Assembly: GCA_028383925.1 (NCBI GenBank) | Contig: JAOEWO010000009.1 | Coordinates: 1-64,000 of the forward strand | DNA: 64,000 bases | From: Winogradskyella sp. | GTDB lineage: Bacteria > Bacteroidota > Bacteroidia > Flavobacteriales > Flavobacteriaceae | Reading direction: 5' to 3' | Part shown: positions 16,335 to 20,510 of the stretch, piece after piece | Numbering within the stretch: position 1 is the first letter of the stretch | Layout of the letters: each line of letters opens with the position of its first letter | Translations under genes and position numbers: made by a program | The notes under the pieces: generated by a model | Told to the model about the DNA's origin: nothing | Seen by the model: only the letters and a program-made list of their open reading frames with translations | Databases searched by the model: none

Positions 16335-16907
16335 ATGTTTCAACTTGGAAAAACAATTGTATCTGAAGATATTATAGAGAAAGACTTTCTATGCAACCTT
16401 TCTGCCTGTAAAGGGGCTTGCTGTATAGATGGTGATGCTGGTGCACCTCTAGAAAAAGATGAGGTTAAAATATTGGCAGATATTTACCCTAAAGTAAAAC
16501 CTTTTTTACGAGAAGAAGGTATTAAAGCTATTGAAGAGCAAGGTACTTCTGTAAAAACCGCTTTTGGTGATTTAGAAACTCCATTAATTAATGGTGCAGA
16601 TTGTGCTTACGTTATATTTGATGAGAAAAATACAGCACTTTGTGCTATAGAAGAAGCGTATAACCAAGGGGAGATTAGTTGGAAAAAACCAATATCTTGC
16701 CATCTATACCCGATTAGAGTTAGAGATTATACAGAGTTTTCGGGTGTTAATTACGATAAGTGGGAGATTTGTGACGATGCTTGTTCTCTAGGTAAAGAAT
16801 TACAAGTCCCGGTTTATAAATTTGTAAAAGAAGCTTTGATTAGAAAATTTGGTGAAGATTGGTATGCAGAATTAGAGAAAGTAGCGCAAAGTAAATACAA
16901 CAGGTAA
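16335..16907 (+). CDS. DUF3109-family cysteine-rich protein
   Basis: A 190-residue protein of the DUF3109 family, conserved in Bacteroidota. Cysteines cluster in DFLCNLSACKGACCIDGDAG, NGADCAYV, TALCAIEE, PISCHLYPIR and EICDDACSLG, a pattern suggesting a metal or Fe-S site related to the CxxxCCxxC-type zinc/iron-chelating families. The biochemical role is unknown. It is monocistronic as far as can be seen; a TAnnTTTG promoter lies immediately before the start codon. The following 453 bp lack genes. Confidence 0.88.
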   Translation: MFQLGKTIVSEDIIEKDFLCNLSACKGACCIDGDAGAPLEKDEVKILADIYPKVKPFLREEGIKAIEEQGTSVKTAFGDLETPLINGADCAYVIFDEKNTALCAIEEAYNQGEISWKKPISCHLYPIRVRDYTEFSGVNYDKWEICDDACSLGKELQVPVYKFVKEALIRKFGEDWYAELEKVAQSKYNR

Positions 16908-17360
16908 TTTTTTATATTTTTTTAATCTTTAATAGTTGGGGTTTTTTTTAATCCTGACTTTTTTTGTGCCAATCAATCAAAAAATAAATATAAATAGACC
17001 ATCTTTTTGTTTAAATATTGTTCAATTTTCATTCTATTAAAACTCCCAATAAACACTAAGCGTTAAGTCTTTTTTTGTACGACAAAGACTACTTTAAAAC
17101 GCTAAACACTAAATATTTAAATGCTTTAAAATCAAATGATTAATTCTATTTTTCAAAAAATCCTTTGTTAATGGTCTATTCAAACGTTTGTTAAAAACTT
17201 GTTGACAACGTTTACTAAATACCCTTTCATTTTAAAGCACAAAAGTCAATCTTTGTTAAAGGCAATATAAAGAAGAGATTTCTGCTTTAGAAAATTGCCT
17301 TTTTTACACCTATCAAGGAAATTTATAAAACGTTTTACGGATATGCTAACGAAATCCTGA
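16908..17360 (+). other. gene-free, structure-rich leader region of nrdBA
   Basis: No ORF on either strand. Seen: a 10-bp perfect long-range pairing, AATAGACCAT (16993-17002) with ATGGTCTATT (17171-17180). Inside it is a two-part hairpin, AGCGTT + AGTCTTT / AAAGACT + AACGCT (17059-17103), flanked by AAACACTAA repeats. There are three AACGTTT boxes (17181-17190 and 17327-17336 fully palindromic, 17207-17213), and a terminator-like hairpin at 17258-17306. The layout suits a regulated leader RNA or a small RNA ending before nrdB. No exact TAnnTTTG is present; AATCTTTG at 17248 is one mismatch away. Confidence 0.5.
17258..17306 (+). terminator. hairpin plus T-tract ahead of nrdB (terminator or attenuator)
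   Basis: Arms AAAGGCAAT / ATTGCCTTTTT enclose a second pairing, TAAAG / CTTTA, and are followed by a T-tract, 54 bp before the nrdB ATG. It is about 350 bp after the DUF3109 stop, which is far for that gene's terminator. An attenuator or the end of a small RNA is more likely; a 5'-end hairpin is an alternative. Confidence 0.6.
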
Positions 17361-18701
17361 ATGACTAAAAATCATTCTACTGATATCTTAGCCTTTAAAT
17401 TGAAAAAAAGTATGGAGATTAAACAACTAGAGATTACCCAAATTATTAAAAGAGATTACGAAACAAGTCCGTTTGTTTTAAATAAAATTTCCAATGCTGT
17501 AGAAAAAGCGATGCTTTCTGTTGGTAATGGTAGTAAAGAAGATGCAAAGTCTATTTCTGCAAACGTTTTACAAGAATTACTAGAGCGCAAAGAAAGAGAT
17601 AATAAATATTTGCCAACGGTAGAAGAGGTACAAGATCTTGTAGAGCTTAAATTAATGAATAGTACGTTTCAAGATGTAGCTAAAGCTTACATTTTATATA
17701 GAGACGAGCAAACTAGAAACAGAAAAACAAATGTTTTTGAAAAGCGTATTAATTTAAAACCTTACGAGTATCCTGCTCTTAACGAATATGTAGATGCTAT
17801 TAGACACTCATACTGGATTCATTCAGAATTTAACTTTACTAGTGATATTCAAGATTTTAAAACGAGACTAACCGTTGTAGAGCAAAATGCAATTAAAAAT
17901 ACAATGTTAGCCATTTCTCAGATTGAAGTTGCTGTAAAATCATTTTGGGGCGATATTTATGGTAAAATGCCAAAGCCCGAAATTGGAGCTGTTGGTGCAA
18001 CCTTTGCCGAAAGTGAAGTACGCCACCATGATGCCTACTCACACTTGTTAGAAATTTTAGGACTTAACAACGAATTTAAGAGACTAAAGAAAAAGCCCGT
18101 AATAATGAGACGTGTTCATTATTTAGAAACGGCTTTAAAAAATGCAAAGAGTGACGATAATAAAGAGTATGCTGAGTCTATTATGCTATTCTCTCTATTT
18201 ATAGAGCATGTGTCTTTATTCTCTCAATTTTTAATAATAATGGCCTTTAATAAACATAGAAATATGTTGAAAGGTATTTCTAATGTGGTAGAAGCAACTT
18301 CTAAAGAAGAGCAGATTCACGGAGATTTTGGAATAGACATTATTAATATTATTAAAAACGAAAACCCAACTTGGTTTGACGAGGAGCATAGCGTTTTAGT
18401 AAAATCATTATGTGAAGAAGCTTTTGAATCTGAAAGCAAAATTATTGATTGGATTTTTGAAGCTGGTGAATTAGAGTTCTTACCTAAAGATGTTATTAAA
18501 GAATTTGTAAAAAATAGATTTAACAATTCATTAGAAAGCATCGGAATTGATAAAATATTTGAAACAAATGAGGCCTTATTAGTGCAAACCGAATGGTTTG
18601 ATGATGAAATCATTGGAACAAAACATGGAGATTTCTTTGTGAAGCGTTCTATCAATTACAGCAAAAGAACCAAAAGTATAACCAGCGATGACCTTTTTTA
18701 A
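17361..18701 (+). CDS. nrdB: class I ribonucleotide reductase beta subunit with N-terminal ATP-cone
   Basis: Residues about 20-115 form an ATP-cone (ITQIIKRDYETSPFVLNKIS, VQDLVELKLM, VAKAYILYRDEQ), the allosteric module normally found on NrdA. The radical-generating ferritin-like domain follows, with metal-ligand helices containing AISQIEVAV, SEVRHHDAYSH (Glu 219, His 222 and a Tyr at 226, the position of the E. coli radical Tyr) and EEQIHGDFG. The same design is known from Leeuwenhoekiella blandensis NrdB, a class Id dimanganese enzyme, so this may be class Id. Start uncertain: the ATG at 17412 (MEIKQLEI) sits just before the cone. nrdA begins 3 bp after the stop. Confidence 0.93.
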   Translation: MTKNHSTDILAFKLKKSMEIKQLEITQIIKRDYETSPFVLNKISNAVEKAMLSVGNGSKEDAKSISANVLQELLERKERDNKYLPTVEEVQDLVELKLMNSTFQDVAKAYILYRDEQTRNRKTNVFEKRINLKPYEYPALNEYVDAIRHSYWIHSEFNFTSDIQDFKTRLTVVEQNAIKNTMLAISQIEVAVKSFWGDIYGKMPKPEIGAVGATFAESEVRHHDAYSHLLEILGLNNEFKRLKKKPVIMRRVHYLETALKNAKSDDNKEYAESIMLFSLFIEHVSLFSQFLIIMAFNKHRNMLKGISNVVEATSKEEQIHGDFGIDIINIIKNENPTWFDEEHSVLVKSLCEEAFESESKIIDWIFEAGELEFLPKDVIKEFVKNRFNNSLESIGIDKIFETNEALLVQTEWFDDEIIGTKHGDFFVKRSINYSKRTKSITSDDLF

Positions 18702-18704
18702 ACC

Positions 18705-20510
18705 ATGAACGACAACACTAACTTAGACCTCGACAATAACATGATTAAAGCACAAACTTCAGCAACACCAGCATCTAGCCAAGAGGAATTACTTAATGCT
18801 AGAAAAGAAGCTATAAAAGAAGCTAACAAAGAGCCAGAAATTAAATGGTTAACAGAAAATAGTCGAAAGTTTTTAGCTTCGGGTTATTTAACAGAAGGTA
18901 CCAATCCTGAAGAAAGAATTAGAGAAATTGCTGAAAGAGCAGAAGAGATTTTAAAAATTGATGGTTTTGCAGATAAGTTTTATGGCTACATGGCAGAAGG
19001 TTATTATTCTTTAGCCTCACCTGTTTGGTCTAACTTTGGTAAAAAACGTGGTTTGCCAATAAGTTGTTTTGGTTCGCATATTTCTGATGATATGGGCGAT
19101 ATCCTTTATACACAGTCTGAAGTTGGGATGATGTCTAAATTAGGTGGTGGTACATCTGGTTACTTCGGTAAATTAAGACATAGAGGCGCACCAGTAAAAA
19201 ATAATGGAGAGTCTTCTGGCGCTGTACACATTATGCAATTATTTGAAAAAATGGTTGATGTTGTAAGTCAAGGTTCTGTAAGAAGAGGTCGTTTTTCTCC
19301 TTATTTACCAATAGATCATCCAGACATTAATGAGTTTTTAGAAATAGGAACTGAAGGTAACCCAATACAAGAGTTAACACATGGTGTAACCGTGGGTAAC
19401 GAGTGGATGGAGCAAATGATAGAAGGTGATGCAGATAAAAGAGCCATTTGGGCAAAAGTATTACAAAGAAGAGGTGAGATAGGATACCCTTACATTTTCT
19501 TTAAAGATAATGCTAATAATGCAGCACCAGATGTATACCAAGAGAAAAAACATGAGATTTACGCAAGTAACTTATGTTCAGAAATAATGTTACCTACAAA
19601 CGATAAATGGTCTTTTGTATGCGTATTATCATCTATAAACTTATTGCATTACGATAAGTGGAAAGATACTGACGCTGTAGAAACTATGGTGTATTTCTTA
19701 GACGCTGTTTTAGAAGAGTTTGTAACTAAGTTAGAAGAATTTAGAGATTCGCCAGACCGTGATGATAGACAAACGTTTATGTTTATGGAGAAGGCCTATA
19801 ATTTTGCTAAAGAAAATAGAGCATTAGGAATGGGAGCTTTAGGATGGCACTCATTATTACAATCTAGAATGTTAGGATTTGACTCTAAAGAAGCATTTGA
19901 TCTTAACAGTGAAATATTTAAAACTATAGGCGAAAAATCTCGTAAAGCATCGGAAGAATTAGCCGTGTTATTTGGTGAGCCAGAGGTATTAAAAGGTTAC
20001 GGAAGACGTAATACAACATTAAACGCAGTAGCACCAACAACATCTTCGGCATTTATTTTAGGACAAGTATCACAAGGTATTGAGCCAATTTGGTCTAACA
20101 GTTATGTAAAAGATATTGCTAAAATAAAGACCACAATAAAAAACCCATTCTTAAAAGCACTTTTAATAGAAAAAGGAATGGATACTGTTGATGTTTGGAA
20201 AAGCATTAGAGATTACGATGGTTCGGTACAACATTTAGAAGGACTTACAGATCACGAAAAGGATGTGTTTAAAACCTATTCTGAAATTGACCAAATGACG
20301 TTGATTTACCAAGCCGCAAACAGACAAAACCACATAGATCAAGGACAGTCTTTAAACATTATGGTACATCCAGATATGCCAGTTAAAGAGATTAACAAGA
20401 TTTATGTTACAGCTTGGAAATTAGGTGTAAAATCATTGTACTACCAACACAGTATGAATGCCGCACAGAAATTTAAACAAAAGAAAGAATGTGCTAGCTG
20501 TGAAGGCTAA
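18705..20510 (+). CDS. nrdA: class I ribonucleotide reductase alpha subunit lacking ATP-cone
   Basis: The catalytic subunit reducing ribonucleoside diphosphates. At 601 residues it begins directly with the catalytic barrel and has no N-terminal ATP-cone. Visible: SLASPVWSNFG, the active-site Cys in LPISCFGS, SGAVHIMQLFEK, the central Asn-x-Cys-x-Glu in SNLCSEIMLP, the radical-transfer Tyr pair in KSLYYQHS, and a C-terminal redox CASCEG. Activity control by ATP/dATP must therefore come from the cone on NrdB. The first 35 residues are low complexity. Co-transcribed with nrdB (3-bp gap); a strong terminator follows. Confidence 0.95.
   Translation: MNDNTNLDLDNNMIKAQTSATPASSQEELLNARKEAIKEANKEPEIKWLTENSRKFLASGYLTEGTNPEERIREIAERAEEILKIDGFADKFYGYMAEGYYSLASPVWSNFGKKRGLPISCFGSHISDDMGDILYTQSEVGMMSKLGGGTSGYFGKLRHRGAPVKNNGESSGAVHIMQLFEKMVDVVSQGSVRRGRFSPYLPIDHPDINEFLEIGTEGNPIQELTHGVTVGNEWMEQMIEGDADKRAIWAKVLQRRGEIGYPYIFFKDNANNAAPDVYQEKKHEIYASNLCSEIMLPTNDKWSFVCVLSSINLLHYDKWKDTDAVETMVYFLDAVLEEFVTKLEEFRDSPDRDDRQTFMFMEKAYNFAKENRALGMGALGWHSLLQSRMLGFDSKEAFDLNSEIFKTIGEKSRKASEELAVLFGEPEVLKGYGRRNTTLNAVAPTTSSAFILGQVSQGIEPIWSNSYVKDIAKIKTTIKNPFLKALLIEKGMDTVDVWKSIRDYDGSVQHLEGLTDHEKDVFKTYSEIDQMTLIYQAANRQNHIDQGQSLNIMVHPDMPVKEINKIYVTAWKLGVKSLYYQHSMNAAQKFKQKKECASCEG

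Follow-up and report, generated by a model that had tools for sequence, protein, structure and literature searches.

Ribonucleotide reductase (RNR) makes the building blocks of DNA, and the nrdBA operon in the stretch analysed here (the window: 64,000 nt of Winogradskyella sp., contig JAOEWO010000009.1, positions 1–64,000) raises the question of whether its expression is controlled by a leader RNA. The original prediction described the 453 bp in front of the operon (16908–17360) as a structured, possibly regulatory leader belonging to no recognised riboswitch class. That idea is supported by compensatory changes between relatives, by the association of the RNA with a single nrdB lineage and by the lack of an Rfam match, whereas most of the bases originally named as forming the leader do not belong to it.

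The operon comprises nrdB (17412–18701), encoding a class I RNR small subunit with an N-terminal ATP-cone (Pfam PF03477 and PF00268), and nrdA (18705–20510), encoding an NrdE-prime type protein without an ATP-cone (TIGR02510, 766.8 bits; the Pfam ATP-cone is absent). Both genes lie on the forward strand, as do the terminator, operator, promoter and RNA elements described below, and the nrdB loci closest to that of the window are found in Psychroserpens and Winogradskyella. The start of nrdB had been placed at 17361. Homologs instead indicate an ATG at 17412, with relatives aligning from residue ∼15–23 of the reading frame that opens at 17361. An N-terminal NrdB extension from 17361 was rejected as well, because it would be in frame and open in merely 5 of 53 leaders; the ATG at 17361 falls within hairpin P3 of the leader RNA. 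With nrdB starting at 17412, the non-coding stretch therefore becomes 16908–17411. Upstream of it lies a DUF3109 gene (16335–16907), followed by an intrinsic terminator at 16934–16966 (stem AGTTGGGGTT..AATCCTGACT, then a U-run) that is predicted to set this gene apart from the nrd unit. A terminator is found at the equivalent place in the relative G039 (AGTCAGGATTTT..AAAATCCTGACTTTTTTT) despite a different upstream gene. The G039 locus (L187) keeps a spacer of ∼200 bp along with the terminator, and between terminator and operator it has an additional insertion that includes a separate hairpin (GAAGCATTTAAATAATGCTTC). A partial, AT-rich second match of the upstream stretch occurs elsewhere in that genome, on contig 88.

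Where would a leader begin? nrdBA is predicted to have its own promoter, composed of a −33 region CTTTCA (17224–17229) and a −7 box AATCTTTG (17248–17255), and the position of the −7 box in the sequence would put the transcription start at ∼17260. The flavobacterial −7 box is TAnnTTTG at −12 to −5 (PMC9723704); AATCTTTG agrees at five of the six specified bases, deviating at the first (A for T), and the match to the −33 region is weak. The equivalent of ∼17173–17277, from the operator through the −7 box, aligns without gaps in 54 relatives (consensus TTGTTAAaAACTTGTTGAcAAcGTTT..CTTTcatTTT..CAATCTTTGT), and the motif CTTTyaTTTT...CAATCTTTG is conserved at fixed spacing in these 54. The predicted leader in the window spans 152 nt (17260–17411), and the distance from predicted start to ATG in relatives is 148–199 nt, with a median of 187. 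We count this leader as long by comparison with the median 5′ UTR of Flavobacterium psychrophilum, which is 24 bp (PMC9723704).

The leader can be arranged into helices P0–P4. At its 5′ end, P0 (17260–17266 with 17294–17300), identified from the minimum-energy fold and a partner-swap test, closes a variable P1 hairpin. A stem at 17258–17306 had been singled out as terminator-like; it is real and its sides covary in relatives, but it constitutes the 5′-terminal P0/P1 domain of the predicted transcript. Compensations in P0/P1 include GGC/GCC, GACA/UGUC, GGUU/AACC and GAGGUU/AACCUC. P2 (17307–17319) is a UUCC/GGAA-type hairpin in relatives and is weak in the window, at 2–3 bp. It is followed by a conserved unpaired stretch AUAAAACGUUUUACGGAUAU at 17325–17344 (consensus UAACACGUUUUACGGAUUU in alignments A1 and A2), which holds one of the AACGTTT boxes discussed below. 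P4 pairs GCUAA (17345–17349) with UUAGC (17388–17392), with an alternative pair 17345–17395, and its 3′ strand ends 17–20 nt upstream of the nrdB start. Enclosed by P4 is the P3 hairpin, GAAUGA (17359–17364) with UCAUUC (17372–17377), the arms of which read GAAUGAU/AUCAUUC, GAACAAC/AUUGUUC, GAGUGAU/AUCACUC or GAAUACU/AGUACUC in different species, remaining complementary while the loop varies in length. P0, P1, P3 and inner P4 appear unaided when the window leader is folded to minimum energy. A three-codon ORF of the form AUG-NNN-NNN-UAG/UAA lies over the P4 3′ strand in slightly fewer than half of the leaders, and its equivalent in the window (17380–17391) reads CUG-AUA-UCU-UAG; this ORF is possibly a by-product of P4.

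To assess the helices we used leaders collected with an nhmmer profile built from Winogradskyella sequences; of 88 non-identical upstream regions, it recovered the element in 55. These 55 homologous leaders come from Winogradskyella, Psychroserpens, Lacinutrix, Olleya, Oceanihabitans, Tamlana and Algibacter. RNAalifold returned zero pairs on the MAFFT alignment because the arms are partly misaligned and the hairpins vary in length. This led us to draw the structure manually from the arms, after which it was counted on the same alignment (A2 for P2, P3 and P4). For P2, P3 and P4 together, 87.7% of cells are paired and 44 are double-changed, compared with 20.9 ± 4.1 in shuffles, and the pairing drops to 39–58% once the partners are slid. 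Shuffles take no account of relatedness, so a second null of 300 alignments was simulated along the tree. A 6-bp helix with at least 85% of cells paired occurs in none of these 300 phylogeny-aware alignments; P3 qualifies as such a helix, with 92% of its cells paired and double changes at five of six pairs. Tested against this null in a 16-pair set, pair 83–96 (P3) has an E-value of 0.001 and pair 62–120 (P4) one of 0.016; the P4 pair with that value, 17345/17395, is AU in 29, GC in 10 and GU in 2 of 46 cells. P2 is paired in 77.9% of cells and shows double changes at four of five pairs.

Pairing dropped significantly when partners were exchanged between species, with counts of 15/2000 for P0, 0/5000 for P1, 58/5000 for P2, 0/5000 for P3 and 18/5000 for inner P4, and with no signal for control segments or for the wide P4 segment. 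The best single pair in an all-pairs covariation scan had an E-value of 0.5. Since no pair in that scan fell below 0.05, it is whole helices that carry the support. Folding energy adds little, as the leaders fold no better than neighbouring spacers (mean z −0.96 versus −0.84). Taken at the level of the alignments, compensatory changes back P0–P4, strongly for P3 and moderately for P0, P1, P2 and P4, so that the leader has a conserved secondary structure, even if several of its helices are weak. The covariation that the original prediction had asked for is present in homologous leaders, in these helices.

A covariance model of the core leader (R1, spanning 17299–17407) has a single significant match in the window, the core leader itself, at 90.1 bits. 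In relatives, the predicted promoter block and the nrdB start bracket this element, placing it between promoter and start codon. Within the genus, R1 is present in 41 of 69 genomes, in one copy each and directly before nrdB in all 41, and these are exactly the genomes whose NrdB is 85–100% identical to that of the window. The 28 genus genomes that do not have R1 carry an NrdB that is 69–77% identical or partial, or another type of RNR. Across the family, R1 was found in 10 of 400 genomes, from seven genera. A search of Rfam 15 yielded nothing at the gathering threshold for the window locus or for 17 relatives, only sub-threshold matches, and none at all for locus L083; the leader accordingly belongs to no riboswitch class described there, and an identification as 6S or another known RNA was discarded for want of a match. 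Neither nrd nor ribonucleotide is mentioned in the flavobacterial transcriptome paper (PMC9723704, main text) or in recent RNA-discovery papers. Comparison between genomes demonstrates that the leader exists, that its helices carry compensatory changes and that it is tied to one nrdB lineage; by the same comparison it is, in these marine bacteria, a clade-specific, conserved base-paired RNA with no Rfam entry.

Other nrdB genes have leaders of their own. In a sister group (Seonamhaeicola, Hyunsoonleella, Jejuia and others; NrdB 78–80% identical), the region upstream of nrdB (L104, L106, L109, L110, L112, L115, L118–L120 and L123) holds a different leader of consecutive stable hairpins, the arms of which, judged by eye, seem to covary (ACACAC/GUGUGU versus GAGCCU/AGGCUU; CAGGG/CCCTG). 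Loci L173–L184, from genus genomes with an NrdB 75–77% identical, mostly have RNR promoters with a variant repeat ATGTTAATAAAAGTGTTAAAAAA, and most have a conserved leader GGAGGAATAAATTGGATATTTGA...CCTCATG that is distinct again.

Upstream of the predicted promoter, tandem repeats of ∼12 bp (TTTGTTAAAAA / CTTGTTGACAA / CGTTTACTAAA, 17184–17216; 12-bp repeats TTGTTAAAAACTTGTTGACAAC at 17188–17209) form a putative RNR operator. The repeat matches once in the window, where 0.08 matches are expected. It also occurs with zero mismatches in 13 of 13 genus genomes that carry a different type of RNR, with the ATP-cone on NrdA (G007, G012, G013, G015, G017, G020, G021, G024, G050, G051, G054, G060 and G107). 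There it lies ∼1.2–1.3 kb before the nrdA match and is the sole perfect match per genome; in G007 the DUF3109 gene adjoins the operator too. Judged from these genomes, the RNR was apparently replaced while the promoter element was retained, and it is this conservation across a change of RNR type that makes the repeats look like an RNR operator. The element is confined almost entirely to the RNR operon. A near-copy with one mismatch was seen in G000 (contig 11, 20741–20762; L160), where similarity extends over ∼50 bp before the gene of an HU-HIG DNA-binding protein.

Which regulator might read these repeats is a separate matter. They resemble NrdR boxes (PMC9110341) in that both provide, putatively in our case, RNR-specific transcriptional control through promoter sites. 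They differ from NrdR boxes in being 12-bp TTGTTRA-type repeats, and the operon does not fall within an NrdR regulon, as the nrdR gene is absent from the genomes searched: the model TIGR00244 finds NrdR in 0 of 21 relatives and 0 of 151 Flavobacteriaceae genomes, and is positive in nine control genomes. In E. coli, the nrd promoter is under the control of DnaA, which has boxes of the form TTWTNCACA. The repeats here are only loosely like TTATCAACA, and a DnaA-box reading gained no support at dnaA, with neither motif clustered ahead of that gene in those loci where the region is included.

The reading that we consider probable is that nrdBA has its own promoter, an upstream RNR operator and a conserved cis-regulatory leader that tunes expression, most likely at translation initiation. 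The operator of 12-bp repeats would provide transcriptional control of RNR in organisms without NrdR. In the transcript, the P0/P1 domain at the 5′ end would be followed by P2, by single-stranded ACACGUUUUACGGAUUU and by P4 around P3, and formation of P4, prompted by a signal, would alter the access of ribosomes to the nrdB initiation region. Shine–Dalgarno sequences are absent from Flavobacterium johnsoniae, as from its phylum, and translation in this species falls when the initiation region is structured (PMC6847099). This property, together with the position of the P4 3′ strand 17–20 nt before the start codon, is why we prefer translational control. We infer that the leader acts in cis on nrdBA, where it probably sets how much RNR enzyme is made, and the conservation of the unpaired nucleotides 17325–17344 suggests a specific partner, either a small molecule or a protein.

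Other roles for the same structure have to be weighed. P0 and the hairpins could protect the nrdBA mRNA or act as RNase sites, serving stability or processing without any regulated switch. P0 does begin at the first nucleotides of the predicted transcript, and in P0, P1 and P3 it is pairing rather than sequence that is conserved, but such a role leaves unexplained both the conserved unpaired stretch and the conserved P4 strand near the start codon, and we consider it unlikely. Alternatively, P0/P1 and the U-run GCCUUUUUU (17297–17305) could end transcripts early, with an AAAGGAA/CCUUU pairing serving as the antiterminator. Six U residues directly follow P0 in the window, and the P2 3′ strand is able to pair with CCUUUU, which overlaps P0, or with UUCC in relatives. 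Against attenuation, P0 has just 3–7 bp and encloses a domain of ∼27 nt in the window (usually 30–80 nt elsewhere), a terminator scan makes no call at P0/P1, and in most relatives other nucleotides break up the U-run (UCUUUUUAUUCC, CCCUUUAUUUC). There is only a slim chance that the leader is an attenuator of this kind.

A more specific proposal is that the leader is a riboswitch sensing nucleotides or deoxynucleotides, one that replaces NrdR in the Flavobacteriaceae without it. Streptomyces nrdABS, with its cobalamin riboswitch, is the RNR case of metabolite riboswitches in 5′ UTRs. Like that riboswitch, the window leader is a structured, conserved leader on a class I RNR operon and has conserved unpaired nucleotides; unlike riboswitches, it matches no Rfam riboswitch and is limited to one operon in one clade. 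We hold a nucleotide-sensing riboswitch to be doubtful. For the cis-regulatory leader in general, a stability element or a protein site would fit the narrow distribution and the single associated operon too.

Selection might also have acted on DNA only, the conserved block representing promoter and operator palindromes with no selected RNA structure. The operator and promoter (17184–17255) do have the character of DNA elements, with no gaps in their spacing. An operator would, however, be expected to keep its sequence, and the P3 arms diverge yet remain complementary around loops that vary, which makes this explanation very improbable for the leader.

The elements emphasised by the original prediction lie largely upstream of all this. 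Its 10-bp perfect inverted repeat (16993–17002/17171–17180) is present in the sequence, but as an RNA pairing it is at chance level for so AT-rich a stretch: the region has four perfect 10-mer inverted pairs where dinucleotide shuffles average 2.03, and 98 of 500 shuffles have at least four. In G039, the sole relative that aligns over this upstream stretch (76% identity), the arms, AATAATGCTT on the left and ATGGTCAATT on the right, no longer pair. Nor does G039 retain the two-part hairpin at 17059–17103, although it is present in the window. The overall folding energy of the region is unremarkable (z −1.75, 5 of 100 shuffles). Three AACGTTT boxes (17183, 17207 and 17330) do exceed chance (0 of 500 shuffles), but the first two are part of the conserved repeat upstream of the promoter, within the putative operator, and it is the third that lies in the conserved leader. 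A transcript starting downstream of 17258 had been named as evidence against the leader as first drawn, and the predicted start at ∼17260 is such a start for the upstream parts. By that criterion the long-range pairing, the two-part hairpin and AACGTTT boxes 1 and 2, all upstream of it, are not leader. The best-supported RNA element, 17299–17407, falls mostly in the 54 bp that had been placed immediately upstream of nrdB and in the first part of nrdB as then annotated. A separate small RNA or riboswitch at 16993–17180 is scarcely credible: although G039 shows 76% identity across 198 nt, both named pairings are lost there, the 10-bp pairing is at chance level, and among 100 genomes none but G039 aligns over the whole element.

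A translation-tuning leader on nrdBA can be set beside other flavobacterial systems. Like the Flavo-1 motif and further structured 5′ UTRs from Flavobacteriaceae (PMC9723704), it is a computationally inferred RNA in a 5′ region; Flavo-1 stands before many kinds of gene (PMC9723704), whereas the window leader has one copy per genome, always in front of nrdB. The enzyme itself resembles NrdAi/NrdBi of Leeuwenhoekiella blandensis (PMC5794259) in having an ATP-cone at the NrdB N-terminus and none on NrdA, and that work, in the part available to us, treats enzyme allostery and does not deal with a leader RNA.

The leader has the usual hallmarks of new regulatory RNAs, namely compensatory changes, an unpaired conserved core and strict gene association. 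If it did prove to be a nucleotide-sensing riboswitch, RNR would be regulated twice by the same pool, through the NrdB ATP-cone and through its own mRNA. The locus bears on the control of ribonucleotide reductase levels in bacteria that lack NrdR, and it offers two testable layers of control: an operator unchanged across RNR replacement, and a leader RNA restricted to a single RNR lineage.
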